Shown here: one piece after another, positions 3,369-62,700 of the stretch
Numbering within the stretch: position 1 is the stretch's first letter
How the letters are laid out: every line of letters starts with the position of its first letter
Assembly: GCA_019055375.1 (NCBI GenBank)
Contig: JAHQIW010005076.1
Coordinates: 1 to 64,000, forward strand
DNA: 64,000 nt
Reading direction: 5' to 3'
From: Parelaphostrongylus tenuis
Taxonomy: Eukaryota; Nematoda; Chromadorea; Rhabditida; Metastrongylidae
Made by a program: the position numbers and the translations under genes
Notes under the pieces: generated by a model
Databases searched by the model: none
What the model was told of the DNA's origin: nothing
The model's input: the letters and a program-made list of their open reading frames with translations, nothing else

Positions 3369-5767
3369 ATGAACGTAGCAGTGGTATTGCTTTTGATTAT
3401 TACCGTGTTTAACTGCATCGCTCAGCTGCAAGAGTATTCGGGAAAAATTAGTAATACTGAGAGATCAAGGAATCAACATTTTTGTGGGGGACAAGGTAAT
3501 GCCAGTATGTTTACTTATCTAGTTTTATACGGTTCGTTATATGATTTGCGTCGATCCTTGCACTCCAGTCACTTCGCTCGTTCTCTCGTATGTCATACAT
3601 GAAATTGCTCAAATATGCACATAGGTGAAAACTGAGGGTTTTGTCTTCGCAAAATCGTTGAATCATTTCGAAACTTTACAATAACATTGACAGAGGTTTT
3701 TACGTAACCACTGGCAGTCTTCGGGCTTGATTAGCCCTTTCTTTTGTCAAAATAGCGAGTAAGCTTGCTTTGCACAGCTTTTTTTCTTCATAAAAGCAGT
3801 TCTATCAAAAAATGATCTATTAGTAGACACGAAAGAGTTTTTTTTTCACTATGATTGTCTGAATAGTTAAGATATATAAGTTCAATCAAAAGAAATAGAG
3901 AAAGCACAATTTTGATGCTGCCTATGAGTAATTTGTCGTGCTGTTATAGTTACCTAGCCTTTAGTATTTCAACAATACCTTGATTCTGCACTGCTCTACC
4001 TCACACTAAGGCTACCTGTTTTGTGGAGAATTGGCGGTACTCATTGTACCAGTACCTACAACTATTCGGCTTTAGGAAAAAAAATGTGAATCCATTGCCA
4101 AGAAGAAATTTAGGCAGAAATATTCAACGACGATCGGTGGGTGGAGTGGCTGCAAAGAGAGGTGAATTTCCATGGATTGCGTCAGTGTTCGTCGAGGATA
4201 GTAAGATCAAGCCCATAGGTGAGTGTATTTTTTGACGCTCTATCACCTTAGTCTGAATTTTACCATATCAATAAAAAAAAAGATTTCGTTTGCCATCAGC
4301 ATGCACTGGAGTGATGATCTCAACTCGTCACTTATTGACTGCCGCTCACTGCGTCACAAAAAGAGTTCGCAACCACTATTCCCTGTGCGGAAGCGGTCGC
4401 CATCCATCGTTCGTTTTTCTTCCACTTGATTTTAAGTTTTCGTAACAAAATCTGCTTAGAACTTTGTGGCATGCATAGCAAATGACAACCACGACATTCC
4501 GAATAAATTTTAGGACTATATATGAGCAACTGAATGAGGCAAATACCACTGTTTACGTTGGAAGTCACTGCAGAGTCCCACGATGGTGCTCGTACAAAAC
4601 TCCTGAATACAGTATTGTGCAGGTACTATGAAAAAACTTGCTAACAGTACCTTCCAAACTATTATATTTGAGACTTCGCCTAAAAAATCAATATAATCTG
4701 ATAGAATGTTTTAAGCCTTTCAGAGCTCTGCCATGACAATCCCAGCCGCATATGTACGTATCGGCGTTCGCACAAGCTTCTTCAGTACCACATATCCTAC
4801 GGGTTTTTTTCTACTACCACCTGCCACATGTTTTTTAAAAGCCGTTCGTCATCAGCTAAAAATCCCAAGTTTAGACCGCAAACATCAGATGATAATTTCA
4901 CTCTGTGTAAAGTGAAGCATCTTTGGCGCCGCTGCTACTGGTAAATGGGGTGAACCGTAGGGCATGATTTACTGATGAGGCACGCGAAAACTCCAAAGCG
5001 CACATATGCCACTGAAAATATAAGGCCAGACCTCTGAATAGCTCTAAGCATTTTATCATTCTTGTTAACAGTCTTATCACCGTTCACATTAATTGTTACT
5101 TTGAAAGTTTAGAAAATGACTTAGAGGTCAATGTACCTGTTACAAGTGACTTTCGGATCGCAATCAGTCGTCCTAGGAGTTTCTCCTCATTCCAGATGCA
5201 TGTTTATCCCGGCTATAACCCTTGCAATTTCGACAACGATTTAGCCATAGTGGAAATCTCCGGAAATGTATATAGGGTTGGGGTACCGATTTGCATGCCT
5301 AGTGAAAACGAAGAATTATCTGTAGAATTGGTAGCGGCTGGATATGGGATTAATCGTAAGTTTAGTAGCAAGAGCAAAATCCAGTTCAGTTTGGATAGAA
5401 TCATGATAATTCCTCCTTTTTCAGCACACGACACACTTCATCGTCGTCTCCACGCAGTTAATCTGACCTATTACACACTCACTTCGGCTAATGCAATCCT
5501 CACGAAAACACCCGGAAGGTCTATTTGCAGTGTAAGTTGGCACCTTTTCATTTCGAAAACCGGCTGAAAACTTCTTTGAGCACCAAAAAATCTTTCTTCA
5601 GTCACCGCTATTTATAGGGAGATAGTGGTGGTCCTCTGTTCAAAACAACTCAGTCCAGAGCTATTGTAGTTGGTATTACCAGCTCACACACTGGCGACTG
5701 TAAAGGATTCGGACCAACTGAAGGTTCTATGATAGATTTTAAAGCCTATGATTACAATTCAGCTTAG
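3369..5767 (+). CDS. Secreted chymotrypsin-like serine protease (family S1), 8 exons
   Basis: Exons 3369-3495, 4114-4218, 4300-4435, 4514-4622, 4724-4802, 5125-5355, 5425-5531 and 5618-5767 give 1044 coding bases (347 residues). All introns are GT..AG and all junction phases agree. Residues 1-18 are a hydrophobic signal peptide (MNVAVVLLLIITVFNCIA). A dibasic RR precedes SVGG, the expected zymogen cleavage and mature N-terminus, where the family usually has IVGG. The catalytic triad is visible: His in TAAHC (exon 3), Asp in NDLAIVEI (exon 6) and Ser in GDSGGPL (exon 8). The residue six before the catalytic Ser (position 189 in chymotrypsin numbering) is Ser, not Asp, so trypsin-type Lys/Arg specificity is not expected. 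The enzyme should cleave extracellular proteins. Gut or secretory expression is inferred from the family, not seen. The donors of exons 3 and 5 are weak matches to consensus. Intron 5 carries a dispersed repeat. Confidence 0.88.
4965..5080 (+). repeat. Dispersed repeat inside intron 5 of the protease gene
   Basis: The segment beginning tactgatgaggcacgcg is similar to 42305-42420 (caatgatgaggcgtgcg) for about 110 bases, including a shared aaggcc/aggcctct phrase and a shared aagcatt phrase. It therefore marks a mobile repeat inserted in the intron. The opening CTGATGAG and a following CNAAA resemble a hammerhead ribozyme core, but stem II pairs poorly, so I call only the repeat. Confidence 0.45.
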
Positions 5768-6179: not shown

Positions 6180-7910
6180 ATCACCTGTATCATCTGTCGT
6201 CCCGTTGATCGTCGAGTGACTCGAGCGGGTACCAGCAACTCTTCCATTTTTCCCTATCGCGTGCAAGAATAGCCCAGTGGGTCCTCCTTGCTCTAGGAAT
6301 TCGCTGAGCATCATATCTTTCTTCCATCGCTTTCGTGAAGAAATCGGACCAACGGGTCAGTGGTCTTCCTTTAGAGCGCTTGACGTCCCGAGGAATCCAG
6401 TCGGTAACGGCTCTCGTCCATCGGTTGTCGTTGAAGCGCATCACGTGTCCGGCCCACCTTATTTTCGATATCCTGGCGTGTAGAACGGCGTCTCTGATTT
6501 TCGATCGTTGACGTAGGTCGGAAGTTCGGATCCTTTGTCTCATTTGCGAAATACGAGATACTCCTAGCATCGACCTTTCGACTGCGCGTTCGATAACTCC
6601 AAATAATCTTTCAACCTGCTTACGTAGCGACCAGGCTTCTGCTGCATACGTCAGGGCAGGGATAATTGTCGAGTCGAAAAGGTGGGCACGGAGTCGGATG
6701 TTCTTTGTCCTCTTCACTACATCTTCGATGCTCTTAAACGTTCCCCAAGCCGCTCGTTTCGTTCTGCTCAACTCTGGGGCTAGGTCGTTGATCATGTTGA
6801 TTTCACGACCTAGATAGATGTAACTGGAGCATTCGGAAATTGTCGTTCCGTTGAGCGTGAATGGGACATTGGAAACCCATCCGTTCCTCATGAACATTGT
6901 TTTCGTTAGATTCAGTTGAAGACCGATCTTTCCACAGGCGTTATCCAAATCGGTCAACATTCGTACCGCTTGGCTGATGTTTGGTGTTATGAGAACGATA
7001 TCGTCAGCAAAGCGAAGATGGTTTAATTGTCGACCGTCAATTTTCACTCCCATTTCGTCCCATTCTAATGTTCGCATGACGTTTTGTAGGGTGACAGAGA
7101 ATAGTTTTGGCAATATTGTATCGCCTTGTCGAACCCCTCTTCTTACGTCAATGGTGATATTGTTGTAGAATGGAGATATTCTGGTCGTGAAATTCTTATA
7201 AAGCTCACGAAGGATCATTATGTACCGAGTAGGGACGCCCTGGTTATCCAGAGCCTCTATAACCGCTTCTGTTTCCACTGAGTCAAAGGCTTTTTTCAGA
7301 TCGATAAAAGTGAGACAGAGTGGTTGTTTGTACTCTCGCGAAACTTCAATGCGTCTTGTGATCGTGTGGATGTGGTCCATGGTACTAAATCCTTTTCTGA
7401 AGCCCTGCTTGTTCGCATGGCTGTCCCTCGTCCAGTGTTCTGTCAATCCTGTTCAGGATGACTCGAGTAAAGAGTTTATAGATAACGGACAGCAAGCAGA
7501 TTGGGCGATAATTGCCTATGTCGTGAAGGTCTCCCTTTTTGAACAACAATACGGTCTTGCTGGCTTTCCATTGAATAGGGACCTTGCATTCTGACAGGTA
7601 GCGAGTGAAGAGCCGAGCCAGGGTGTTGAAGAGAACTAGCGGCAGGTTCTTCAGGTGTTCTGGTCTAATCCTATCTGGACCGGGTGTTGTTTTGTTTTTC
7701 ACCGACGATATAGCATGTCGGATTTTGGAAGGAAGGACCGGTGGAACGACATATTCGTCCTCTTTCAATTTATATGACGGTAAGAGAACATGGCTAGCGA
7801 AGAGATCCGAGTAGTACTGGTGGATGATTTCTCTATAGCCCTTCTGGAAGCTGTAAGTGTCCCGTCAAGGTATCGGAGTGCAATCATCTTGGTCTTAGAC
7901 ATCACGAGAA
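6180..7910 (-). mobile_element. RTE-type non-LTR retrotransposon, 5'-truncated, reverse transcriptase part
   Basis: On the minus strand, 7768-7385 encodes the N-terminal fingers of an RTE reverse transcriptase (TPGPDRIRPEHLKNLP, then GNYRPICLLS). Translation continues in another frame at 7446-6190 for 418 residues, with GFRKGFSTMDHIHT, LTFIDLKKAFDSVE, RRGVRQGDTI and the catalytic FADDIVLI. It ends with the RTE C-terminal thumb region (RWAGHVMRFNDNRWTRAVTDW). The frame change between the two pieces lies near 7385-7446, at the Q-GFRKG motif. Similarity to the longer copy at 59745-63040 stops near 7905, so the upstream endonuclease half is missing. That is the usual 5' truncation of target-primed insertion. 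The element cannot encode a complete protein. Confidence 0.9.
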
Positions 7911-9985: not shown

Positions 9986-10712
9986 TGTGTGAAACAAACA
10001 CAAAAGTCGAATATTTCGCGACATTTAATGAGTTTTTTTCAACCTAGTATTAGCGAGTGTTCTATGACGCCTACGGTCATTTGTTGGAGTTTTCTTCATG
10101 AGCAATTGTGTTCCGACCCTGCGTGGTTAGGTGAATTGACACTAGACTCTCACACTAGGCTGGAGAAATTTTTATCATGTACTTAGTCACTTCTGTGAAA
10201 CTAATTGGAGTCTAATTTATAATCAATAAGGAGGGAATCAAACTGAGCACACTACGATTTTACGTATGACATTTGCTTTATAGGTTTTAATAGGAAACAT
10301 GAATTGATATTTTCAGGAGTCTGCCCGTCTTGAGGCACCATGGATGTAAACCACGTTTCATTTGAAACAATTTAGCGTAAGCAAAAAAGTGTTAAGTGAC
10401 TTGATTGATTGTTGATTGCTATTGTTTGTTGTTTTTGTTTCTTTTTTGAAATTTTTGTTAACTGGTTATAATAAAATGCCTACGATACAACGTGCTTAAA
10501 CAACTGGAAGATTACTGACCCCGATTTGGCAAAGTTTGCATTGAGTTATGTTCACGACAGTAAACAAGTCAACATCTTTGCCGTTGTAGTGACTTGCAAT
10601 GTCGACTCAACACATCGGTGACAATGTAGAAATCGCTAAGACATCGCTCAGACTAAGACTACTGGATGTCTTGTTATTATATCAGCTATTTTGAAGTTAC
10701 TATCAGTTTCAT

Positions 10713-11016
10713 AAGGGCGCTTGTGGCGCAGTGATAAGAGGTGCTCTGCGTCGCACACAACGTCGACTGTTCAGTCTCTCGCTCGTGGCTCACCAAACCA
10801 TGCGTCCGGAGTCGGTAAATTCGTAGCAGACTGGTCTCAAACTTGTCTGGGAGGATAAGCAGCACTGACTCGATACAGCGGTAGGCCACTGCGAGTCATT
10901 AAAAAGGCCAGGTATGCATTCATTCACCTCAAACGAAGTCAAAAATCGAAGACGAATGTATGGCGCCCCTCAGGGATTGATCAGAACCGAGAGCTTTATC
11001 CTTTCATCCTTTTATT
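10713..11016 (+). mobile_element. tRNA-derived SINE (family A), with target-site duplication
   Basis: A 5' tRNA-like head (GCGCTTGTGGCGCAGTG, box A) is followed by a diverged box B region and a non-tRNA body (gtctgggaggataagcag, gcattcattcacctc). The element ends in a gagctttatcc tail. The 8-base sequence agtttcat flanks it at 10705-10712 and 11017-11024, which looks like a target-site duplication. Similar copies lie at 11782, 16320, 32623, 43028, 44868 and 58225. Such elements are transcribed by RNA polymerase III and moved by a partner LINE. The RTE copies in the window are a candidate partner, but that is inference. Confidence 0.82.
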
Positions 11017-11781: not shown

Positions 11782-12073
11782 AAAAGCTCTCGGCGTTCAA
11801 TCCCTGAGGGATGCGCCATGCATTCGACTTCAATTTGTTACTTCGTTTGAGGTGATTGAATGCATATCTGGCCTTTACAATGACTCGCGGTGGCCTTCCG
11901 CTGATCCGAGTCAGTGCTGCTTATCCTCCCAGACAAATCTGAGACCTGTCTGGTACCAATTTACCGACCCCGGAGGAATGGATGGCTTGGTGAGCCATAA
12001 GCACGAGATCGAACCAGTGACCTCGTGTGCGACGCAGGGCACCCTCTGACCACTGCGCCTCATGTGCTCGACC
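11782..12073 (-). mobile_element. tRNA-derived SINE (family A)
   Basis: Read on the minus strand it has the same order as the 32623 copy: head with ggcgcagtgg, a ggttcgatctcg box B, a ccaagccatccattcc segment, a tctgggaggataagcag body and a gccgagagctttt end. It is fairly well preserved. No coding content. Confidence 0.8.
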
Positions 12074-14234: not shown

Positions 14235-15085
14235 CCTTTTTCATTTCGAATTCTCAAGCGCAAGCGATGCGCTATGGTTGTACCGAGGTCTCCGCCCAAA
14301 CTGCTAGAACAGTTTGCAAGAAGCCTTAGCCTATTGACAATAATCGCTTTGAAACTGAAGAAATTTGAATAGAACAAAAGTGCTAAAAAATTACAGGACA
14401 TTTCAGTATTGTTGTCGTCTCTCTAAATGTGCGATTTTTTTTAGATATATATATCCCATTTTTTTAAAAACCTTTTTCATCAAAAAATTCTTTCTAATGT
14501 CTTTTTTATTCTCATAAAATTCTATTCGAGCAAAATAGAGCATTCTTGAATTAAGTCCTTACTGACTATTCAGTCCACGATTAACTTTTTCTTCTTTTGA
14601 ACCATTTTTCGTGTCAATATCTAGGTTGACAAGCCATGTGTATGATAATAGACTTTATTAATCAACTGGCTTATAGAGTGGCTTTCGAATACGATGAGTA
14701 GTTGTAGAGCTGCGCATGGGCTATCGATGTCACAGCAAAGCATCTAAGAAACTAGCCAGCATATATCCACAAACTTTTTGTCAAGCCTTTCACGGAGTTT
14801 GGCATTGGATCTTAGTTAATAATGTGCTTACTTATCGATGGTTTCGCACGTCTCATCAGTATCACACGTCCCCATAGTAAGAGTAGAAGATGAGAAGATG
14901 TCACGATGCTCGTCAACTGAACTCTTACGTGTTGCGACGTCTTTCTTTCAGGCGAATTTCAGATTTCAAAATCAGTCGGACAATATTCATTCTTCATATT
15001 ATAACAGCCGCAAAACACCGACAAAAAGATAGTCGGTGCAACACATAACAATTTAGTTGACGAGCACTGTGGTATCCTTCTCCTC
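14235..15085. other. Non-coding stretch
   Basis: Nothing supported. Near 14825-14855 the minus strand holds a CTGATGAG..GAAAC juxtaposition, but without a pairable stem II. Confidence 0.45.
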
Positions 15086-15092
15086 TGCAACT

Positions 15093-15158
15093 CTTAGTAT
15101 GGGCCGTGTGATAGTGACGAGACGGGCGAAATCGTCGAAACACGCGCATATTACTAAG
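15093..15158 (+). ncRNA. Degenerate hammerhead-ribozyme-like motif
   Basis: The core reads GTGACGAG (15114-15121), then a stem II of GACG (15121-15124) with CGTC (15133-15136), then GAAAC (15137-15141). It is followed by ACACGCGCATA where a palindromic stem III and UH cleavage site would be. An outer 7-bp stem pairs 15093-15099 with 15152-15158. The first core base is G instead of C, as in the copy at 50000. The order matches a type I hammerhead; decay makes activity unlikely. Confidence 0.45.
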
Positions 15159-15169
15159 ATGCAGTACCA

Positions 15170-16317
15170 GACCTCGTAAAAAGCGTAAAGGAAAGTCTGT
15201 ACAAATATATATACATATATATCGAAATTCAAACGAGGTTATGAGAGTCAGTCGATTATAAGGTAAGTAAAATGCAAACTTATTCCAATACTGGTCGTCA
15301 ACTCAGAATGTAAGTAATTTGAACAAAAATAACGTAGCTACAAAACTATTTATTGAAACCAGCTCAATAAATAAATTTAACAGATCTAATTGAAGATAAT
15401 AATAAAATTTCTTCCACTTTACACCTTGTTGATCATAATAGACCTTTCACTCCATTGGCTTCCTCAAACCGCCACTCCCAAAATTCTTCGCCTATCGGGC
15501 GACATTGAAGGTCACACAAGAATTTTGCCCCTGTGAATATTGTTGATGTCAGACTCTGCTAGCGGTATGTATTCTACTACGAGTTTTTGTGAAAGCTATG
15601 CTTCAGAACTTCCAGCGCTCCATGATTAGCACGGAGCACTTCACAGGCATTTCTTTATTTACGCTTCTGGTCAAAGGGGAAAAAGAACTCCTTGAGGTGT
15701 AGTATACGCAGGTTATTGGAGATTTATCTAAACAAGCACTCCTGTACCTGAAATGAGAAATTGTAGTGAACAAAGTCTAGGTTAAACTAACAGATTCATT
15801 TTCACTAACAGTGTGATAGGAAGAGGGAACAGCGGCGTGGGTACTGAGGTACGCTTTCAAAAAGAAAGGTTCGGCCTCATCCATCGTCAATCTTTTGCAT
15901 GTTCACATGAGGACGAAGCCGTGGCTTAGCTATTCCCGAGATCGCAAAAACGATCCTTTCGAGAAGGATTCTACAGTATCCATAATGAAAATGAAATCCT
16001 TAAGCAGCAGCCGAAGCAATATGCAAATGTTCGAGCCCCTTCATCATGGATGAATGCGATGAAACGATTCGAATGCAATGAAGTGTTGTGATCCGCATAA
16101 CATATGTAATGACGTGTTATGTAAAAGAGAGATAGTGTAAAAGGCGAATCACATAGTTTTATCGTCTGATGCACCCTTCCCAGTCCATGGAATCTTGTTA
16201 CTCCTTACGTATATTACTCTGAAATCGCGTCTCTATAACCGTGTTCTAGCTACACGGTCGTTATGACAATACATGACGACCTGATGGCTGCAACCTGATT
16301 GATTATCCATGAATATA
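15170..16317. other. Non-coding stretch
   Basis: Includes a short atat-rich run near 15207. No gene or repeat recognised. Confidence 0.45.
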
Positions 16318-16319
16318 AG

Positions 16320-16614
16320 GGTTGAAGGATAAACCTTTCAGCGATGATCTTGAGGGATGCGCTATGCATTCGTCTTCAATTTTTAACTTCGTTTGAGGTA
16401 ATTGAATGCATATCTGGCTTTGACAATGACTCGCAGTGGCCTCCCGCTGAACAGAGTCAGGGCTGCTCATCCTCCAAGACAAGTCTAGATCAGTCTGGTA
16501 CAAATTTACCGACTCCGCAGTGATGGATGGCTTGGTTAGTCATTGGCGCGAGATCGAGTCATTGACCTCGTGTGCGACGCAGATCACCTTTAACCGCTAG
16601 GCCAAATGCGCTCG
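16320..16614 (-). mobile_element. tRNA-derived SINE (family A)
   Basis: Minus-strand copy with the family head (gcgcatttggcctag in place of the box A consensus), a diverged box B, and a body with tcttggaggatgagcag and gcattcaattacctc. The gctgaaaggtttatcctt tail is slightly altered. It is more diverged than the 32623 copy, implying an older insertion. Confidence 0.75.
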
Positions 16615-22470: not shown

Positions 22471-22999
22471 TGATTGAAATTAGTAATTCCTGTTGCAGAA
22501 CCTCACTTCTGCTCATCAAAAAAACAGTGACTTATTCCTTGCGTCGAGTTTAACAGGCGGTTGGTTTCGTTTTATTCTCCTCCATTTCCGCACTTTCATT
22601 TATATTTCTAACAAAACTGCTATAAATAAATTCACTCGAATCCATTAAAAATGAGAAATACGCTAAGGTCTACAAGAGTCCATACGAAGAAGAGCCTTTT
22701 CGACGACATCAACAAAGAACTCATTTAGAGGCGGGGCAGTTTGTTGAATCTGGATACCGGACGTTCTGGCAACTGCCTTAATAATGTTTTACGACCTGCT
22801 AGGTCAACTGTTCTGTTCTCAGCTACTGCGCCCTCATTGAAATGATGACAAAGTTTTCTGCAATGCCGAACACCGTTTGTTGCCTGTTAAACATTTTCAT
22901 TATATGTACAAGATTAATTGACATCTACCGACTCTGCAATTTATTAATTCCTTTGATGCAAAGCGCTTCCAGTTCCAAAATCTAATGTTATTACTGCCT

Positions 23000-23330
23000 T
23001 TTCGCACTGTTATAATGTTACAAGTATACCTAATAGAATTGAGTGCTAAGCAAAAAGTCGACCTCAAGTGGGAGTTGAACCCGCATTTCATCCATAGCGT
23101 GGACATGAGCAACCACTAAACCACCAAAGCCACCGCTACTCACCATTCATTTTTCATTATCTTTCTGTCATAGCTATCAGCCAGCAACCATTAATAGGTT
23201 TGTCGGGCAAGCAATATTGCTATGTAAACACAGTTGAACTGACACCCATTGTGCTAATAGAATTCCAAGATTTCTGCTGTTTTTATTGCTTTTTCGTAGT
23301 GTTATGATGTTAAAAATAACCCTAAGAAGG
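23000..23330 (-). repeat. tRNA-like repeat family B, single arm
   Basis: It contains a minus-strand tRNA-like module (about 23065-23135). The box B complement reads ggagttgaaccc, the box A side reads ccactaaaccacc, and the acceptor-side strands are cctcaag and caaagcc. Downstream come the family phrases tatcagccagcaacc, ataggtttgtcggg and gttgaactgaca. The complete foldback versions are at 38030-38650 and 43600-44290. Near 23300 a second arm seems to begin (agtgttatgatg) and is lost. Confidence 0.6.
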
Positions 23331-24705: not shown

Positions 24706-24819
24706 AAACAATAATATTAGACCTTTCTTTCGAGTGCTTTTTTAAAACCACACTCAAATTTCAACAAATCCTTTCATTATTATTTGAGCCAACTTGTCGT
24801 GTGGTCTGGTAAAGGCTCT

Positions 24820-24850
24820 CTGACGAGTCTGTAAAGACGAAACACGTGTA
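24820..24850 (+). ncRNA. Hammerhead ribozyme core, intact catalytic residues
   Basis: CTGACGAG (24820-24827), stem II GTCT-GTAA-AGAC, GAAAC (24839-24843), then the self-complementary ACACGTGT and the A of a GUA cleavage triplet, giving a predicted cut after 24850. All conserved core positions match CUGANGA..GAAA. The 5' strand of stem I has been replaced (tctct precedes the core and does not pair with tcgggc), so this copy probably cannot cut by itself. The very short stem III resembles dimer-dependent hammerheads such as that of the newt satellite. Confidence 0.7.
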
Positions 24851-25132
24851 TCGGGCTGTACAAGAGCCCTTACCAGACCACATTACAAGTTGGCTCAAGT
24901 AATAATGAAAGTATTCATTGAAATTTGAGCGTGGTTCTTGAAAAAGCACTCGAAAGAAAGGTGTAATACGATAAAATACCAGCCAGCGAGCAATCAAGTG
25001 CGAAAACACTATGTGTTAGGTGAAAATTTCGCTTGACATAGAGTGTAGAACGTTCGTCTTCAATGACTCTTTGTAAGGGAGTAGAGCTCCCGAGAGAACT
25101 GACTTCGAAAATATCGAAAGACGACGGGTTCT

Positions 25133-25175
25133 GCCCGACTGACGAGTCTGTAAAGACAAAACACGTGTATCGGGC
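25133..25175 (+). ncRNA. Type I hammerhead ribozyme, one core substitution
   Basis: Stem I pairs GCCCGA (25133-25138) with TCGGGC (25170-25175), six Watson-Crick pairs. The core CTGACGAG (25139-25146) is exact. Stem II is GTCT-GTAA-AGAC, and stem III is the palindrome ACACGTGT ending in a GUA triplet, with the predicted cut between 25169 and 25170. The only flaw is that the G of GAAAC is A. Compared with the 24820 copy, this one supplies the intact stem I and lacks the intact 3' core. Confidence 0.75.
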
Positions 25176-25334
25176 TGTACAAGAGCCCTTACCAGACCAC
25201 ATGACAAGTTGGCTCAAATAGTAATGAAAGGATTCATTGAAAACAATAATAATCTGACAAGATTATTACATATTACATGTCTAATCGCTTGTATAATAGT
25301 GGCTCAAAAAATGTTAGATCCTCAACAACAGTAT

Positions 25335-32622: not shown

Positions 32623-32922
32623 TAAATAAAGGATAAAGCTCTCGGCGTTGATCAATCCCTAAAAGTTACGCCATGCATTCGTCTTCAATTTCTAACTTCG
32701 TTTGAGGTGATTGAATGCATATCTGGCCTCTACAGTGACTCGCGGTGGCCTTCCGCTTAACCGAGTCAGTGTTGCTTATCCTCCCAGACAGGTCTGAGAC
32801 CAGTCTGGTACCAATCTACCGACCCCTGAGGAATGGATGGCTTGGTGAGCCATGAGCGCGAGATCGAACCATTGACCTCGTGTGCGACGCAGAGCACCTC
32901 TAACCACTGCGCCACATGCGCT
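32623..32922 (-). mobile_element. tRNA-derived SINE (family A), best copy, with target-site duplication
   Basis: On the minus strand it begins GAGCGCATGTGGCGCAGTGG. Box A is TGGCGCAGTGGTTAGAGG and box B is GGTTCGATCTC. The head ends GCGCTC, which pairs with the opening GAGCGC as an acceptor stem. The body contains gtctgggaggataagcaa and gcattcaatcacctc, and the tail is gagctttatcctttattt. The 9-base catatagga is present on both sides (32614-32622 and 32923-32931), as expected for a target-site duplication. Length is about 300 bases. This copy defines the family for the window. Confidence 0.88.
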
Positions 32923-33006
32923 CATATAGGAGAGTATCTACTTGAAAATCCAACTCCAAACAAAGTACTCTACTAGGAGAATACTTGTTGTGAGCTAGAG
33001 GGTCTA

Positions 33007-33054
33007 GTGGTATACTCGCGCCTGTTTCGTCCTACTGGGACTCAGCAGCACCAC
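33007..33054 (-). ncRNA. Hammerhead ribozyme, left arm, decayed
   Basis: On the minus strand, stem I GTGGTG pairs with TACCAC with one wobble pair. The core reads CTGCTGAG, where CTGATGAG is expected. Stem II is GTCC-CAGTA-GGAC and GAAAC is exact. The stem III and cleavage region read ACAGGCGCGAGTA and are altered. One essential core base (A to C) is changed, so it is probably inactive. Confidence 0.65.
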
Positions 33055-33278
33055 CCTCCCGCGGTTCAGCCAATCCCCTAAGGTTAAATTATCCTCTAGA
33101 GGAATTGACGCCGATAAAAAAATCACCCCAGGTCAGGTGATGTACTCTTCTGACATTGTGATGACCAGCAGTCGAGTACGTAGGTGTTAGAATGAATTTT
33201 AGCTGTTAGAATTCTTTACTCGGCGTCAATTCCTCTAGAGCATTATTTGACCTCAGGGGATAGGCTGAACCGAGGAAG

Positions 33279-33328
33279 GGTGGTATTGATGAGTCTCAAT
33301 AAGACGAAACGGGCGCCTGTATACTACT
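33279..33328 (+). ncRNA. Type I hammerhead ribozyme, right arm
   Basis: Stem I pairs GGTGGTA (33279-33285) with TACTACT (33322-33328), seven pairs including two wobble. The core TTGATGAG (33286-33293) matches CUGAUGAG except for its first base, U for C. Stem II is GTCT-CAATA-AGAC. GAAAC (33306-33310) is exact. Stem III is ACGG-GCGC-CTGT, followed by A, giving a GUA triplet and a predicted cut between 33321 and 33322. The whole fold fits with one deviation. Confidence 0.78.
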
Positions 33329-33489
33329 AGACCTATCAGCTCAAAACAAGTAATATCCTTATCAAATTATATCATTTTGAGCTGGTCTATAAAAAGCGGT
33401 GGATAGAAGAGTTTTACTCTACTAGACATACACAGCAAGGAAAAACATATCAGAGGACAGATGTAAAAGTCCTTATCCTTGCACAAAAA

Positions 33490-38029: not shown

Positions 38030-38650
38030 TTTGAGGTGAATTTTGACCGCATTTTTCGCAGTGTTATTATGTTTTATACATACCTAAGACAACTGGGTGG
38101 TGAGCAAAAACACGATTTCAGGTGGGAGCCGAACCCGCGTTTCATCCATACCGGGGACGCGATCTACCACTACACCACCGAGGCACATTCGGACCATCAT
38201 TCATTCTTCAACATCTTTTTTAGCTGCCAGCTACCAAACTTGAGCAAGTTTGGTCGGGTACATGATTTGCTTTATAAACCCAGTTGAGGTGACAACTACT
38301 GCAATAACTAATAGTCGAAATTTCTAGCATTTGCAGCAAAAATACTAGAAACTGCGAAAAATGCAGTTAAAAAACTAGAAATTTGGAGTATTAGTTAGTA
38401 CAATGGTTGTCAGCTCAACTGGTTTTATAAAGTAAAACCGCATACCCGACCAAACCTGTTAAAGGTTTGTGGCTGATAGCTAACATAGAGATGTCGAAGA
38501 ATGAGTGGCAGTGCGAGTGTACCTCGGTGGTGCAGTGGTAGCACGCGTCCACGGTATGTATGAAACACGGGTTCGACTCCCGTCTGAAATTGCATTTTTG
38601 CTCACACTGAAGTCTCTTAGGTATATATGTCTGAGGTGCTAGAAACGTGG
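38030..38650. repeat. Foldback element with outward tRNA-like modules (family B, best copy)
   Basis: The left arm (38060-38325) and right arm (38390-38645) are inverted copies of each other through more than 240 bases. Shared landmarks include tacctaaga, gagcaaaaa, a tRNA-like module, cattcttc(a/g)acatct, a tgagcaagtttggtcggg / aacaggtttggtcggg pair, ccagttgag and gaaatttctag. The left module (38114-38184) is on the minus strand and the right module (38521-38590) on the plus strand, both reading outward. A second full copy is at 43600-44290. No coding capacity. Confidence 0.8.
38521..38590 (+). other. tRNA-like module of the family B foldback
   Basis: Starts ACCTCGG, has TGGTGCAGTGGTAGCAC in the D-arm/box A position, and GGGTTCGACTCCCG as a T-arm with exact box B and a pairable stem. 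It ends CTGAAAT, where the mirror copies have CTGAGGC. The anticodon arm does not fold cleanly and no CCA or terminator is seen. It is therefore a tRNA-derived module, not a tRNA gene. Confidence 0.6.
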
Positions 38651-43599: not shown

Positions 43600-44290
43600 T
43601 GCGATTCTTGTTGGATAAAGTTTATTTGCCGATCACTTCTGCAAAAACACTGCCTCAGCCGGGAATTACACTCGCGTTTCATCCATAGGGGAGACGCATG
43701 CTGCTACCACTACACCACCGAAGTACATTTGCGCCACCACTTACTCTTCAATATCTCTATGTTAGTTATCAGCCACCAACCTTTAACAGGTTTGATCGGG
43801 TGTGCGATTTCTATCATTAAACCAGCTGAGCTGACAGCCACTGTCAAATATAATACTCCAGAATTCGGGTATTTTTTACTGCTTTTTGTGGTGTTAGATA
43901 TATACCCAATATATATGTACATGGTATAGGGTATATGTGGCATATTTGCAACATTATAACCTTGCGAGAAAAGCAGTAAAACACTAGAATTTTCGACTAT
44001 TAATTATCACAGTGGCTGTCAGCTCAACTGTTTATAAAGCGAAATCTCATATCCGACCAAACCTTTTGAGGTTGGTGGGATAGCTAACATAGAGATGTTG
44101 GAGAATGAGTGGTGGCACAAATGTGCTTCAGTGGCGTAGTGGTAGCAGCATGCGTCTCCGTATGGATGAATAAAACGCGAGTTCAATTCCCGGCTGAGGC
44201 CGTGTTTTTGCTCACCACTCAATTCTCTTAGGTATATATTTAACACCACAACACTGCGAAACAAAAGCAGTAAAAATACTAGAATTTCAG
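43600..44290. repeat. Foldback element with outward tRNA-like modules (family B)
   Basis: The left arm (43640-43870) and right arm (44000-44285) are inverted copies sharing the family B landmarks. The minus-strand module at 43652-43734 has acceptor strands ACTTCGG and CTGAGGC. The plus-strand module at 44125-44200 has GCTTCAG and CTGAGGC, which pair fully (one G-U). The centre contains an ataccc/gggtat inverted segment around 43900-43935. Non-coding. Confidence 0.78.
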
Positions 44291-49069: not shown

Positions 49070-49904
49070 TTTCCTTCTCCTTTTTTTAAATGGTGAATAC
49101 GATATGGTATTGTCAATCTCACTTAATCATATTCTTTTATATAGGGCGACCGGTACTGTTACCAATAATCTACAGATAATTACCTGTTTTTTTAAACATT
49201 TATATCAGTTTTCATACAGTATAATGCATAAAGTGCATAAAGTTCATCATACTGGTCGAAAATTGGAAAGCATTAAATAGTTTGTCAAGGATAGTGCTGC
49301 TTAATACATGCAATTCCACCCCTTCTATACTTTATGATTCTGATTGTTTTCTAAATATTGAAACATTCCGGTTTCACATTGTCTAGATCAGTGTGTAATT
49401 TCGTTTGAAATTTTTATTCACAGCCATGGTATGTGAGGAGGAGATGGAAGCATAGCGGTTCTTTTCCCTTTTCTATACCCTGATTGAGCCCTATGGTAGA
49501 AACGTGTTTTCTGATTTTGTGTGACGTTACGGTAATTATTCGACGCCTAAAACCAAGTGAATTTGAACGGTGTATTTCATTGCTAAATGGCTTTTTTTCG
49601 CTGTTACAGTTGAAATAAGATGTTTTTCTGCTTGCTTTCTAGAAATAACTTCATTAAGCGCTGTATCTGTTAGAAGAAAATTAGGTTTCGTAAATTTGAT
49701 TAATTTTGATGTCAAGATGCCATTCTGACCTCTTGGATAAACGCGTTTTCTGATCTTTTCAAGATCTCTAATAAATGCTTGATAGCTGAAATCTCTATAA
49801 TTTTGATGGAGTACCTTATATTCAAAATAGCTTCTCAAGTGCGCTTCGGAAATGAAAATAAATGTATCTTTTAGATGATCAAATATAATTCCTTTTTATA
49901 TATT

Positions 49905-50230
49905 TAATTCGAGTGTTTTATTAAGACCACGCTCAAATTTCAATATATCTCATGGTTATAATTTGAGCCAACATGTCATGTAATCTGTTAATGGGCTATT
50001 GTGCAGCCTAATACACGTGTTTCGACCCTACAGTCTCGTCACTAAGACAGAACCCTTCGTCTTTTAGTCTTTAGACAATACTTTCGGGAGCCCCTACTCT
50101 CCCTATAAAGATGTAAGTGACGACGAACGATTTACACTGTTTGTCAAGTGAAATGGTCACCGCATATACAAGGTTATACACTCGACTGCTCTTTGGCTGG
50201 TATTTTCATAATATTATATCTATAACTTTT
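49905..50230. repeat. Hammerhead-bearing repeat (family H3)
   Basis: It begins gagtgttttattaagaccac, then cgctcaaatttcaa and tttgagccaacatgtcatg. The same terminal order occurs at 24735-24810. The hammerhead on the minus strand follows, then aacccttcgtctttt, a cgggagcccctactctccct segment and a cttgtcaagtgaaat-like end. The last parts match 25030-25130 reversed. This copy supplies the left end missing from the 25130 copy. Confidence 0.65.
49998..50047 (-). ncRNA. Hammerhead ribozyme, minus strand, first core base changed
   Basis: On the minus strand the core reads GTGACGAG, with stem II GACT-GTAG-GGTC, then exact GAAAC and the palindromic ACACGTGT ending in a GUA cleavage triplet. Stem I pairs GTCTTA with TTAGGC with one mismatch and one wobble. 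Relative to 25133-25175 several stem positions differ on both strands while still pairing (stem II GUCU/AGAC versus GACU/GGUC), which is covariation evidence. Confidence 0.65.
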
Positions 50231-50234
50231 TATT

Positions 50235-50520
50235 TATATAATTGGTTCAAGCGGTGGTATGATGTTATAGATACTCAGTAATGTAGAGCGATGTGCAAGA
50301 GTTTTGCATCAGGCGAGACTCGAATCCACATCTCATTCTGTACGGGAGGGCGTACTCTAACCCACTGCATTACTGACGCCCATTTTTGCCACCACTCTTT
50401 CTGCGCAACAACGCATCTATTTGTCATCTACCAGCCGTCAACAACGTGGCCCAGATAGTCCGTTATCGACATTGAACCCAGTCGCGCTAACAGATAGTAG
50501 TTTTAATGATCACATGTAAT
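50235..50520 (-). repeat. tRNA-like repeat family C with module 50306-50381
   Basis: The minus strand module opens GGGCGTCAGTAATGC and has a GATTCGAGTCTCGCC T-arm with box B-like sequence. It is flanked by gtagagcgatgtgcaa. On the other side come tctgcgcaacaacgcatct, accagccgtcaacaac, and cgcgctaacagatag. The phrase aagcggtggtatgatgtt lies at the left end, as at 24005. Confidence 0.6.
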
Positions 50521-55448: not shown

Positions 55449-56035
55449 GAATTCATTTTATTTGACTGCGTATTGCGGTTTCATGATGCCACAATTAACT
55501 CAATAATGTGGAGTGGTGTGCGAAAGGGCTTGCGTCAGCGGGGATTCGGACCCAGATCTCACTCTTTTCGAGAGAGCGTGCTGACCGTTGCACTACCGAC
55601 GCACGCTTTTGCACACCGCTCTTTCTACTCTACAACGCGTTATCTTTTAACAGCCAACCTCTGCGGTGTGGCGTGGGCATCACTGATCGACGTTGAACGC
55701 ATTTATGCTGACAGATATTGGATTTCAATAATCAATCAGAATTCATTTATGTGACCGCGTATTGCGGTATTATGATGCTACACTTAACCAAATAATGTGG
55801 AAATGGTGTGCGAAACATAAGTGGGTTTCAATGTCGATAGTGGACTGCCCATGCTACACGGTGGACAATTGGCTGTTGACGGACAACGCGTGTAACGCGG
55901 AAGGAGCGGTGTGCAAAGCGTGCGTCGGTAGTGCATCGCTTCAGCATGCGCTCTCGAAAGAGTGAGATCTGGGTTCGAATCCCTGTTGACATCAACTTTT
56001 TCGCACACCATTCTATATTATTGGGTTGATAGTAG
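55449..56035. repeat. Foldback element with outward tRNA-like modules (family D)
   Basis: Arms at 55505-55705 and 55825-56020 are inverted copies. The left module (55531-55603, minus strand) has acceptor strands TGCGTCG and CTGACGCA, and a GGGTCCGAATCCCC T-arm. The right module (55921-55993, plus strand) has TGCGTCGGTAGTGCATCG and GGGTTCGAATCCCT with exact box B. A direct repeat (tgcgtattgcggtttcatga / cgcgtattgcggtattatga) begins each half. It is related in design to families B and C, and shares their modules' position, but the flanks differ. Confidence 0.72.
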
Positions 56036-57769
56036 AGAGTACTCTGCTACATTATGGATTTAAGTGTTTATCAATTGCTCACTGTGCATAATGTAGTGTA
56101 CGAAACAAACAGCTTCACACATGAAATGAATGGTACCTCTATGACAATTATGCGTTGGCTTTCGGTTCAGTTCTTTCGAAATCGGTTCCGCTATGTAGGG
56201 CATATCCTACCGCGAAACTGGCAAGGGCGAAAAGCACCGTGCAACTACGAGGCTGCAGTGCTGAAAAACATATCTTTACTGTATAAGCGTCATTAGAGAC
56301 CTAATGAAAGCTTAAAACATGTTATCACATTTAAAATGCATCTTTAGACCTTTGACGGGCGTGCTCTAGGGCTATTTGGTGGTTACCTAATAAAATTTAG
56401 TTTTTTATTTCCACTAAAGGAGTGTGTCGCTACTAAATGGTAGATTGCGATAGAACAGACTTAATAAGTATATGGGTAGTAGAAAAAATGTGAATACTGC
56501 CTCTAAAACACCGCTTTTCCAAGAGGGAAAAAATTTGTGAGTCCGATTGACTGAGTGCTTTCTTTCTACTCGTTATCTGGGTGGATACCAAAAAATCCTA
56601 ATTTTGAGTTCCTTTTTGAAGTTGTATATCCCAGAAAGCGTGTTCTCAAGTTACGATTTTAGAGAATTGTTGAGAGAAATGTGAGAAAGAGAGTTTAATT
56701 ACGTTGCTACGCCATCGATATGGCATCCATACTAAGACGTAGAAGTTTTCAAGACAACTGAGTGCTCTTTTTACTATAACTCTTTATGCGGGACCCGTCA
56801 TTGAACCTTTTTTATTTCGCAACGATAATCTGACTCAAAATCAAAATTCTGCTACATAACTATCGACGAATGCTCGGGAAGTTCAGACAAACAATGGATA
56901 ACTGCTGCTAAAACGAAGATTCATAAAGATGACGAAATTTCAAAGCAGCATCATAACAGCACATGAAATCTTTCAAAAGCTTTTATTGGAAGACAAACAC
57001 GGCTAGCGGTTCGAATTTAATGCAAAATATGGTGGGATTCGTGCAGTAGCCGAGATAGCAGGCCGTGTGAATAGATAAATAATTAGCAGCCCTCATTGCT
57101 CATCAGGGAAAACACTGAAATATTCAGCCTGCACAAGATAGATATACGTTATCACTGCATGATACACCACGTCTTTGACTTGCTTAAACACAATAGGCTC
57201 ATTGATACTGATAGGTAAAAATATTCCATCGTTCACGATTGAAATGATTACAAGAAAGCCCCATTTTAATTGAACACACACGCTGAAGGTCGGTTTGTGA
57301 GTGAAATTTTTTTATCACCATTTATATTGTGCTCATATAAAGCACATATGAGGTCTTTCTTCTGCTGTTTAAAATAAAGGATCTGTTCCAGAAAGCTACA
57401 GTACGGCAATAAATAAGGGATCAGGCAAACTCTTATTTACAGCAGCTCGGTGATAAGGTCAAACTGGATGATAACCTTCGCAATTCTGTAGCTGTAAAGG
57501 ACATACCTATCTGTAGACCGCATGGTTGCCCAAATTAGCTCTTTCATGAAAAAACGTTCCAATCGCCACATTACTGTCTGTTACTGTTCCTGACGACCAT
57601 GCAGATTGGTTTTTTCACTCAAGGATCATACATGTTCAGATGAAAATTTGTGTTCGCTTATCCCTAGGTGTCATCATTGGCAATGTAGATTTCGTGTCAG
57701 CGCAGCGGTATATTTCTAGAAATCTTTTATGCCTTTTTGAGTATATAATAAGCTCTGAGCTATTAGGCT
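56036..57769. other. Gene-poor stretch
   Basis: No gene or repeat recognised. Confidence 0.4.
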
Positions 57770-57773
57770 TAGT

Positions 57774-57817
57774 GGTATACAGGCACCTGTTTCTTCCTAT
57801 TGGGGCTCATCAATACC
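57774..57817 (-). ncRNA. Hammerhead ribozyme, left arm
   Basis: On the minus strand, stem I pairs GGTA with TACC. The core reads TTGATGAG (first base U for C). Stem II CCCC-AATA-GGAA is partly unpaired. GAAAC is exact. Stem III is ACAG-GTGC-CTGT, with a GUA cleavage triplet directly before TACC. Stem II damage suggests reduced or no activity. Confidence 0.65.
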
Positions 57818-58011
57818 AAATATCCTCGCTTCAGCCATTCAGCTGAAGTCAAATAATTCTCTACAAGAAGTGACGTCGAGTAAAAAATCACAAGTCGGAT
57901 GATGGAGTTACTCGATATTGTAGCGACCTGCCGTCGAACTCGTAGCTGCTATAATGAATCATTTCTCTCCTATCGACCGCTTTTTACAGATGTTTTATAG
58001 AACTTTTATTA

Positions 58012-58048
58012 CTGATGAGTCCCAATAGGGCGAAACAGGAGACTGTAT
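58012..58048 (+). ncRNA. Hammerhead ribozyme with fully consensus core
   Basis: CTGATGAG (58012-58019), stem II GTCCC-AATA-GGGC, GAAAC (58032-58036), stem III ACAG-GAGA-CTGT, then A, so the GUA triplet puts the cut between 58047 and 58048. Every conserved catalytic position is present. Only stem I is weak: tta upstream pairs with just the first two bases of taccatt. Confidence 0.78.
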
Positions 58049-58224
58049 ACCATTAGACCTCACTGCTCAAAACATATTGTCCTTATCAGAATATATCATT
58101 TTAAGCGGGTCTATAAAAAAGCTGTCGACCAAAGAGGTACTTTGTAAAGTTTCTTTTCATTAGCACTTTCTGAAATCTTAGAATCAAAGACCACGCAGCA
58201 AAACAATGTTAGAGATGCTCTTCT

Positions 58225-59550: not shown

Positions 59551-59744
59551 CGAAGTATGTATATCACCTGGCATCCATAAAAAATACTTATATCGTTGCC
59601 ACAAAAGGTAGAAAAAAAATTTTTAAAAATCATGTAATAAATTACTGAGAGTGTTGATCTCCAAAAAAAGACAGAGGCAATGGAATTTGTTTGCATGATG
59701 GCGTCAAAAAATTTCTGACGATCTTTCGTTAACAAACACATCAC

Positions 59745-62700
59745 CTGTATTACCTTTCGTCCCATTAATCGTCGAATGACCCGAGTTGGCACCAACAACA
59801 TTTCCATTTTTCCTTATCACGTGCAGGAGTAGCTTAGTGGGTCCTCGTCGCTCTAGGGATTCGCTGAGCACCATATCTTTCTTCTATCGCTTTTAAGAAG
59901 AAATGGGACCAACGGGTCAGTGGTCTTCCTTTGGAGCGCTTGATGTCCCGAGGAATCCAGTCGGTAACGGCTCTCGTCCATCGGTTGTCGTTGAAGCGCA
60001 TCACGTGTCCGGCCCACCTTGTTTTTGATATCCTGGCGTGTAGAACGGCGTCCATGATTTTCGATCGTTGACGTAGGACGGAACTTCGGATCCTTTCTCT
60101 CATTTGCGAGATGCGGGATACTCCTAGCATCGACCTTTCGACTACGCGTTCGATAGCGGCAAGTGATCTTTCATTCTGCGTACGTAGCGACCAGGTTTCT
60201 GCTGCATAAGTCAGGGCAGGGATAAGTGTCGAGTCGAAAAGGTGGGCACGGAGTCGGATGTTCTTTGTCCTCTTCACTACATCTTCGTTGCTCTTGAACG
60301 TTCCCCAAGCCACTCGTTTTCTCCTGTTCAACTCTGGAGCTAGGTCGTTCATCATGTTGATTTCACGACCTAGATAGACGTAACTGGAACATTCGGAGAT
60401 TGTCGTGCCGTTGAACGTGAAAGGGGCATTCGAAACCCATCCGCTCCTCATGAACATTATCTTCATTAGATTTAGTTGAAGACCGATCCTCCCACAGGCG
60501 TTATCGAAATCGGTGTGTTATGAGAACGATATCGTCAGCAAAGCGAAGATGGTTTAATTGTCGACCGTCAATTTTCACTCCCATTTCGTCCCATTCTAAT
60601 GTTCGCATGACGTTTTGTAGGGTGGCAGTGAATAGTTTTGGCGAAAATGTATCGCCTTGTCGAACCCCTCTTCTTACGTCAATGGTAATATATTGTAGAG
60701 TGACCATATTTTGGTCGTGAAATCTCTGTACAACTCGCGAGGAATCGCTATGTACGGAATAGGGACTCATGGTTGTCCAGAGTCTGTAGCCGCTTATATC
60801 GCCACTGAATCAAAGGCTTTCTTCAAATCGATGAAAGTGAGACAGAGCGCTAATTTGTACTCTCGTAAAACTTCAGTGAGTCTTGTAATTGTGTGGATGT
60901 GGTCCACGGTACTAAATTCCTTCCAGAAACTGTTCGTTCGCACGGCTGCTCTGGCTCTTCGTCCAGTATTCAGTCAGTCCTCTTTAGGATGATTTGAGTG
61001 AGGTGTTTGTAGGCAATGGACAGCAAGCAGATTGGGAGATAATTACCTATGTCGTGAAGGTCTCCCTTTTCGAACAACAACACGCTCTTGCTGTTTCCCC
61101 ACTGAACGGGAACTTTGCATTCTGACAGGCAGCGAGTGAAGAACCGAGCCAGGGTGTTGGCGAGAACTGGCGATATGTTCTTCAGGTGTCTGGACCAGGT
61201 GTTGTTCTATTTTTCACCAACGACAGAGCATGTTGGATTTTGGAAGGGAGAAGGCTAGAACGACAGATTCATCCTCTTACAATTTTTATGACGGTAAGAG
61301 GACATGGCCAGCAAGGAGATCGGAGTAGAAGAGGTAAATGATTTTCTTCATTGCCCTTGTGGAAGCTGTTAGTGCCCGTTAGGGCATCAGAGTGCAACCA
61401 TTTTGGTCCTGTAGTTGCGAAGCTTCGCTGAGCATCGCGATGCTCTTTCCAGCTTCTGCCATAACTGCGGGTCTTCACTCTTTGAGGTCTGCTTTTATAG
61501 CCTCTGCAAAGTTCTGCAAATTCGGATGCGAGGTTTCAGTTGCCTGTAGCTCGTGCGATTCCACGGTGACGTAATAATTTGAGTGTCTGCGAAGACAAGT
61601 GTCTTTTCGTGACTTAAGGGCTTTCAGATTTCATAGCGCTAGCGTAAAGATATTCTACGAGCCGGTCGTATTCTTCGTCGATTATGTCGACAGTGGAATC
61701 TTTCCCAATGCCGAATGATGACATGAATAGATCCCAGTTTATGGTAGTTCTGGGGCTCCGATGTTTGAATTTGATGGCTTTGTCTTCTGCCCGCGAGAAA
61801 CGGAACGTTGTGCTAAGGAGGCTGATCTGATCCCGTGTAAAACTTCGAAGCAACAGCACAACGGTTCAAACAAAGCCTAGAATTTACTAGGATGTGATCC
61901 ATTTCGTTATGATGCTCTTATTAGAAGATTCCCACGCCCACCGCTGAGAGTGAGGAGAACGGGGACTTGTGAGCTACCATAGATGGTATAAGTCGTCATG
62001 ATAAACTCAGAAAGTATCTTACCGTGTTCATTCCATTTAAATCCGCAGGTCCCAATGTGGCGTTCCCTGACGTTTCTTTAGGTCCAATAGTCGCGTTAAA
62101 ATTTCCAACAATGACCTTGAAGATTGTATGTCTTTTCTGAAAATTTTTCGAGGTCCATGGAAAACGCTTCGATTTCGTCTTCGTCATAGCTTGATGCTGG
62201 TGCGTAAGCAACGAAGATTGTTAAAGCCGCCATTGATCCACGTTGTTTCGATCGCAGTCGTCCGATAAGGGTTGTTAGTTGTTCAAACAAATCTATATTC
62301 TCGGTCAAAGTCGATTTGACGAGGACGCCAACGCCACCGAAACCTTTGCGATTGCATGCTCCGAGGAACACTTCTTCTCCGATGTCATAAACAGCGTCAA
62401 AAGGATGGCGTCTTTAGTCTCAACCAAGCTAATAACGTTGTTTCTTATCCTTCTTGCTTCAGGCAAAAGATTTTCTACAGGCCATTTGTAAGTAAAGGTT
62501 CTTGCAATGTAGATACAAGCCGACATTTTAGTCCTTTTCGATCTTGGCAGCCTAGTTTGGCTCCGAGATTTTAACACCTCCGTACTCGTCCCTACGTGGC
62601 GCTGCCTTACCAGGGGCTCTTTTGGGGTCAGGGGAATGGGGCCTATATTTATTGCTGTTTCTAGCATTTTGATACCCAACGTATAGCTTGCCATGCTCGT

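Follow-up and report, generated by a model that had tools for sequence, protein, structure and literature searches.

The window, a 64,000 nt stretch of DNA, contains a reverse transcriptase ORF with 96% identity to a protein of Parelaphostrongylus tenuis, in agreement with the nematode host proposed in an earlier note on this DNA. Among its repeats (Table 1) is the element here called A1, an inverted repeat with arms of 149 nt (32975-33123 and 33211-33359) that are 82% complementary and separated by an 87 nt spacer. Each arm contains an outward-facing type I hammerhead ribozyme (HHR), as the note had described. The 11 bp duplication is found at both flanks, hence the two arms most likely entered in a single event. 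A1 overlaps no ORF as long as 110 aa. Adjoining it is one copy (32628-32927) of a SINE-like repeat also found at 10711-11016, 11783-12070 and 16312-16614, with mutual identities of 76-90%; Rfam made no call on this four-copy repeat, which we read as a tRNA-related SINE.

Table 1. Repeat and mobile element features of the window, with predicted cleavage positions and the evidence for each
Feature	Position	Strand	Evidence or remarks
A1 left target-site duplication, TACTCTACTAG	32966..32976		exact 11-bp repeat at A1 flank; null p 0.002 and 0.007 (two tests)
A1 right target-site duplication, TACTCTACTAG	33415..33425		matches left 11-bp copy exactly
A1, read as a single head-to-head retrozyme-like insertion	32977..33414		bounds set by target duplication; inverted repeat; about 40 genomic relatives scored
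A1 reverse unit: partial tail (end site I), HHR, arm, X segment	32977..33198	-	maps monomer M83 through HHR to M14 or beyond
A1 forward unit: arm, HHR, full tail (end site II)	33211..33414	+	maps monomer M159 through HHR to M77
A1 minus type I HHR, core A6 to C, two stem III pairs broken	33000..33061	-	predicted cut between 33013 and 33012; 69.5 bits, model R1
A1 plus type I HHR, core C3 to U	33273..33334	+	predicted cut 33321/33322; 82.4 bits, model R1
A1 tail, complementary stretches GCTCAAAA..TTTTGAGC	33335..33414	+	holds family insertion ends: site I inside, site II at its end
A2, second family A head-to-head copy	57756..58138		HHRs 57765-57826 (-) and 57999-58060 (+); 65.6 and 61.2 bits
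B1, family B insertion: short reverse unit, then direct tandem	24719..25240		HHRs 24807-24875 (+) and 25126-25182 (+); 15.5 and 14.2 bits
B1 target duplication	24706-24718 / 25241-25253		
B2, family B insertion, close to one complete lap of the unit	49904..50225	-	hammerhead-like motif at 50042 (-)
B2 target duplication	49892-49903 / 50226-50237		one mismatch
Family C inverted repeat, degraded HHR-like motifs outward	14761..15208		motifs at 14859 (-) and 15114 (+); + motif 10.4 bits, weak
Family D inverted repeat, HHR-like motifs outward	4693..5058		motifs at 4785 (-) and 4972 (+); + motif 16.3 bits, weak
LINE with RVT_1 domain, two copies 84% alike	6180-7894 and 59740-61408		close relatives in several strongylid worms

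The plus-strand ribozyme of A1 had been described as having three stems, a GAAAC box, a GUA triplet and one core substitution, all of which are present: stem I pairs at 7/7 positions and stems II and III at 4/4 each, the substitution being C3 to U. The minus-strand copy likewise has the stem I (7/7), stem II (4/4) and single changed core base (A6 to C) attributed to it, with stem III pairing at just 2/4. In a structural scan of both strands the plus copy scored 14, compared with at most 9 in ten shuffled windows, and the minus copy fell below the pass level in the same comparison. To judge from these core changes, one in each, both ribozymes look decayed and may be inactive. The C3G change in the hammerhead of a Penelope-like element (PLE) abolishes cleavage (PMC11167929); by analogy, a change at C3, here C3U, suggests little or no cleavage by the ribozymes of A1. 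The decay of A1's own ribozymes is of no consequence for the family as a whole.

A DNA search of the source genome with A1 as query gave 96 matches, with 40 of 2094 candidates scored. The 39 stretches fetched, together with the two copies in the window, form a set of 41 loci in which local alignment identified 73 hammerheads; the other copies for which the earlier note proposed a search are numerous, and their consensus has an intact core. Five copies with large gaps (two in L014, and L025, L030:985 and L044:987) were excluded from the alignment, and in the remaining 68 the expected pairs occupy 89.4% of cells, against 32-41% with slid partners. Compensatory changes include a stem I pair that is CG for GC in 12 sequences, a change carried by one subfamily, and a stem III pair that is UA for CG in four. 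The covariation score, the paired cells and the double-change cells each exceeded 500 of 500 shuffles, the copies being related to one another, and two of the five measures were unexceptional (double-change pairs as high in 62 of 500 shuffles, further pair types in 71 of 500). A strict intactness rule was passed by 15 of the 68, and L015 and L021 have an intact ribozyme in both arms. Hence a canonical type I HHR with three stems, one of them (stem I) with an internal loop, and a 5 nt loop II is present in this family, termed family A; its cleavage is a prediction.

The earlier note would have taken as a refutation either a covariance search with no genomic copy above threshold or a family consensus lacking the core or breaking the stems. 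The first outcome was seen, as no copy reached the Rfam cut-off, and the second was not, the consensus having a full core and covarying stem pairs. At the gathering threshold no hammerhead was called in the window or in six loci: the best score for A1 was 12.7 bits (HH9, cut-off 52), that for L037 just 18.7 bits (E 0.69) and that for L015 29.5 bits (E 1.8e-4) against RF00163, under its cut-off of 34. The core and stem II of L015 are close to the consensus of RF00163, which we take to be linked to the Schistosoma Sm-alpha type I hammerhead and through which alone the two were compared; the Sm-alpha unit and its host phylum differ from those of the nematode element. A covariance model, R1, made from the 68 genomic copies, those of A1 among them, gives the four family A HHRs of the window 61-82 bits. 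A degenerate core pattern found no match in a genome contig database and one in viral contigs (L001 12600-12624, an IMG/VR contig), with likeness in stem II; this was taken as unrelated and probably a phage hammerhead.

Twenty stretches of 10 kb (200 kb), taken at fixed coordinates from contigs already known to hold a copy and hence not fully unbiased, contained seven family A insertions, about one per 29 kb. Four were head-to-head, one with a reverse unit too short for a whole ribozyme, and three solo. The family of small mobile elements of which A1 is a member is common in this parasitic worm.

The family A unit is about 281 nt long, composed of a tail (monomer positions M1-82), an X segment (M83-157), an arm (M158-219) and the hammerhead (M220-281). 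Copies occur head-to-head, solo or as direct tandems, most of the 41 loci being of the first two forms; 27 outward HHR pairs were found in 26 loci. Direct tandems are present in L010, L015, L042 and the family B insertion B1, with a GC content of 0.42-0.44 and, in family A, a spacing of 279-284 nt. Target duplications scoring at least 10 were found in 11 of the 41 loci, against 0.34 expected from shuffled flanks; two are doubtful (in L023 the word lies in a TA microsatellite, in L037 it is 21 nt from the end) and nine are good. The other 30 lack a duplication at this score, including A2, in whose flanks no clear one was found (p 0.11). The duplications and the many genomic copies support the proposal that A1 is a mobile element.

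A tandem unit of 150-450 bp with low GC content and no ORF, by which retrozymes are recognised, is found in both family A and family B. Metazoan non-LTR retrozymes, as described in passages of PMC7229834, have units of like size (170-400 nt, against 281 and 319 nt here) and share the type I HHR with a palindromic stem III loop, the non-coding unit, a GC content of 42-44%, direct tandems and target duplications of more than 4 bp. In contrast, the insertions found here are mostly head-to-head or of a single lap, and the strings 'nematod', 'inverted' and 'head-to-head' are absent from the main text of that paper.

Insertions end at particular places on the unit. Strict mapping, on which these counts rest (permissive extension ran into the flanks and was discarded), placed 39 of 69 outer 3'-type ends at M9-48, 29 at M62-96 and one elsewhere (L035), with none in M49-61 and none within 15 nt of the HHR cut. 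These two end sites lie about 50 nt apart, downstream of the ribozyme. One end of each class is present in 24 of 28 head-to-head loci, where independence predicts around half (P 8e-5); the exceptions are L035 and three loci with more than two units each (L010, L015 and L031). Of 13 solo or direct loci, six, one of them (L039) a double copy with a deletion, depart by at most 6 nt from an exact lap, which points to circular or multimeric RNA as the probable template. In the predicted fold of the L015 unit, the best preserved of those folded, site I would lie within the loop of the hairpin formed by the tail, and site II for the most part at unpaired positions of the hairpin that follows. Compared with shuffles, the predicted circular fold was clearly stronger in one of five units (z -4.2 for L015, -0.3 to -1.9 for the other four).

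Family B has a unit of 319 nt, with a body other than that of family A and a palindromic stem III. Target duplications of at least 10-11 bp are found at B1, B2 and one copy in L064. Its 3' ends lie at M64-106 and M119-149, a division made by eye across a gap of just 13 nt, and all four clear two-unit insertions (in L062 and L064, one of those in L050, and B1) have one end per class. Two further cases were set aside: L058, which fits but has 144 unmatched bases in mid-element, and L019, which is truncated where its stretch ends. Likeness of the tail to that of family A was significant for B1, B2 and a D-like stretch of L050 (each p 0.002, the floor with 500 shuffles), for L068 (p 0.004) and for one end of D1 (p 0.028); neither C end reached significance, nor did the second end of D1 or D2. 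No clear target duplication was found at the family C and D inverted repeats of the window. The window also contains large inverted repeats at 38076-38628, 43641-44211 and 55491-56033, with a relative at 22977-23318. In two of them Rfam matches a tRNA within one arm (38521-38591, plus strand; 55531-55602, minus strand), and these may be tRNA-derived elements also inserted head-to-head.

The earlier note took the small foldback to be what propagates, which is probably wrong: the unit looks to be the monomer of about 281 nt, and most head-to-head junctions are specific to their locus. Centre junctions are mostly unlike between loci, apart from small look-alike groups (L017, L019 and L027; L011 and L014; L030 and L045); the arrangement therefore probably arises at insertion, which would make the two-ribozyme foldback an outcome of that process and not an inherited unit. 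It is unlikely that the foldback itself propagates, with a master head-to-head element copied whole and its palindromic centre trimmed at each insertion. One master would give the outer-end asymmetry common to 24 of 28 head-to-head loci, and could be reflected in the few loci with similar centres. However, the arms are not clustered by position (identities of 0.769 for 5'-5', 0.768 for 3'-3' and 0.767 for 5'-3' comparisons, and 0.800 within a locus), although the test loses force if the copies descend from a master with like arms. Moreover, the subfamily changes affect both arms jointly: the letter at column 54 is the same in both arms of 21 of 24 pairs (three of the 27 pairs, with gappy rows, being omitted), a result equalled in one of 20,000 shuffles. 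Such agreement could also come from repair between palindrome arms. Solo, direct-tandem and head-to-head copies also coexist in family A, and a like asymmetry is seen in family B. In the young locus L015, identity of the inverted arm is 99.2% to the first direct unit (over 130 nt) and 98.4% to the last one (over 182 nt).

A GIY-YIG search of the source genome, with 150 matches scored of 1723 candidates, found open frames of up to 902 aa; among the scored matches, neighbours less than 5 kb apart were head-to-head in 20 cases, direct in two and tail-to-tail in none. We take these frames to be PLEs, one of which, on contig C416 (loci L069 and L070), was read in detail. It has RVT_1 and GIY-YIG domains in one frame, inverted units 99.75% identical over 787 nt, a tail of about 35 nt at the left end alone and, possibly by chance, the word ATGAATCT at both flanks. 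Hence at least one PLE of this genome has inserted with the layout seen in the retrozymes. An exact match to the hammerhead-like motif CTGANGA..GAAAC lies 3' of the ORF in both units; this we take to be a minimal HHR, a reading that leans partly on known features of PLE hammerheads. Rfam called no hammerhead in the pieces of this element, and model R1 found nothing significant in them. The near-identical units and the many long GIY-YIG frames suggest recent PLE activity in the nematode.

The tail of the C416 element has no similarity to the retrozyme tails (p 0.5-0.9). A 14 nt word, TATAAAAAGCGGTG, is common to the A1 tail (33388-33401) and the 3' region of this PLE (L069 558-571, outside its tail), at p 0.007 for A1, p 0.05 for L042 and without significance for L015 and B1; it may reflect a shared promoter-like element or chance. 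The partner of the retrozymes may be another PLE family than that of C416, or none.

Several published features of PLEs recur in these insertions. Passages of PMC3846280 describe Adineta vaga Penelope elements as inverted, mostly head-to-head units with an optional 31 bp tail at one inverted end and duplications of 8-10 bp, and the protein of the Anolis PLE PAc extends both target strands, starting within a stem-loop, the genomic tail of PAc being the stretch between two start sites (PMC11167929). The head-to-head units, the one-sided tail of tens of nucleotides, the short duplication and the presence of an HHR in PLEs of these two sources have counterparts in the families here, as do, on our reading, the internal start in a stem-loop, the pair of start sites and the extension of both target strands of PAc: the head-to-head layout with a tail on one side is found in 24 of 28 family A loci, the four clear family B cases and the C416 element, and short duplications, a Penelope insertion trait, in 11 of 41 family A loci (two doubtful). 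As this layout is the published PLE signature, PLE-type insertion of the retrozymes is suggested, and the kinship of the type I HHR with retrozymes and Penelope pointed out in the earlier note is judged right. PLEs differ in having an ORF, which family A lacks, and in their hammerheads, minimal according to passages of PMC7761336, whereas that of family A is a complete type I HHR, stem III included. Units of families A and B were rejected as members of the PLEs themselves, 281 and 319 nt being too short for an ORF with reverse transcriptase and GIY-YIG domains. Hammerhead mutants of PAc had no effect on insertion in vitro (PMC11167929), hence insertion itself need not involve the ribozyme.

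We consider it likely that A1 goes back to a single old insertion event, in which PLE-type machinery inserted a non-autonomous, retrozyme-like element of a protostrongylid nematode; the circular template, the PLE protein as enzyme and the activity of the ribozyme are what we infer in this explanation. The source RNA would be the unit of about 281 nt, with one canonical type I hammerhead which, as in published retrozymes, may cut multimeric transcripts into units that are then ligated to circles. Penelope-type reverse transcription would start on circular or multimeric RNA at either of the two tail sites downstream of the ribozyme, and both strands of the cut target would be extended, so that two cDNAs meet head-to-head. 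Two outward hammerheads, about 50 nt of tail at one end alone, a variable centre and a target duplication of around 9-15 bp would be the outcome, making the outward ribozyme pair a by-product of insertion and not a designed two-ribozyme foldback.

A LINE such as that in the window, which has an RVT_1 domain, might instead have moved the retrozyme through L1-style twin priming, a process that yields inversions. This appears very improbable, given that the ends lie at two internal sites on the RNA, with no consistent poly(A) or simple-repeat tail among them, and that both units overlap on the RNA, whereas twin priming on one template gives two units without overlap. In the same genome it is a PLE that has the layout, the ends compared here being those of retrozymes and one PLE. 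That A1 is a DNA transposon of the foldback or MITE kind, bounded by terminal inverted repeats and with hammerhead-like sequence by coincidence, we regard as extremely improbable despite its inverted repeat and target duplication: the two ends differ in type in most copies, the same inverted termini were not found at both ends across family A, units that occur solo are permuted and lack inverted ends, the duplications vary in length, and direct tandems exist.

Insertion by PLE-type machinery bears on a point left open for animal retrozymes, which passages of a 2020 review describe as having no conserved motif that reveals their autonomous partner (PMC7761336). The genomic arrangement of the copies suggests Penelope-like insertion, and the 41 family A loci, with a handful from family B, record the ends, junctions and duplications that point to it, so that the question of the partner becomes testable. 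Retrozymes have been described before, as have head-to-head PLEs; within the literature searched, the two in combination, and the bearing of this on how animal retrozymes insert, appear new. A full-text literature search, mostly without subscription papers, found no paper evidently on nematode retrozymes, and nematodes may join the hosts of retrozyme-like elements. On the more general proposition, that animal retrozymes with canonical hammerheads ride PLE machinery, their circular RNA being reverse transcribed from two tail starts, one per target strand, our judgement is evenly balanced. If it is true, the enzyme of animal retrozymes would be a PLE protein, a single insertion would record two laps in opposite directions, and nematode genomes would contain a large fossil record of the reverse transcription of circular RNA.
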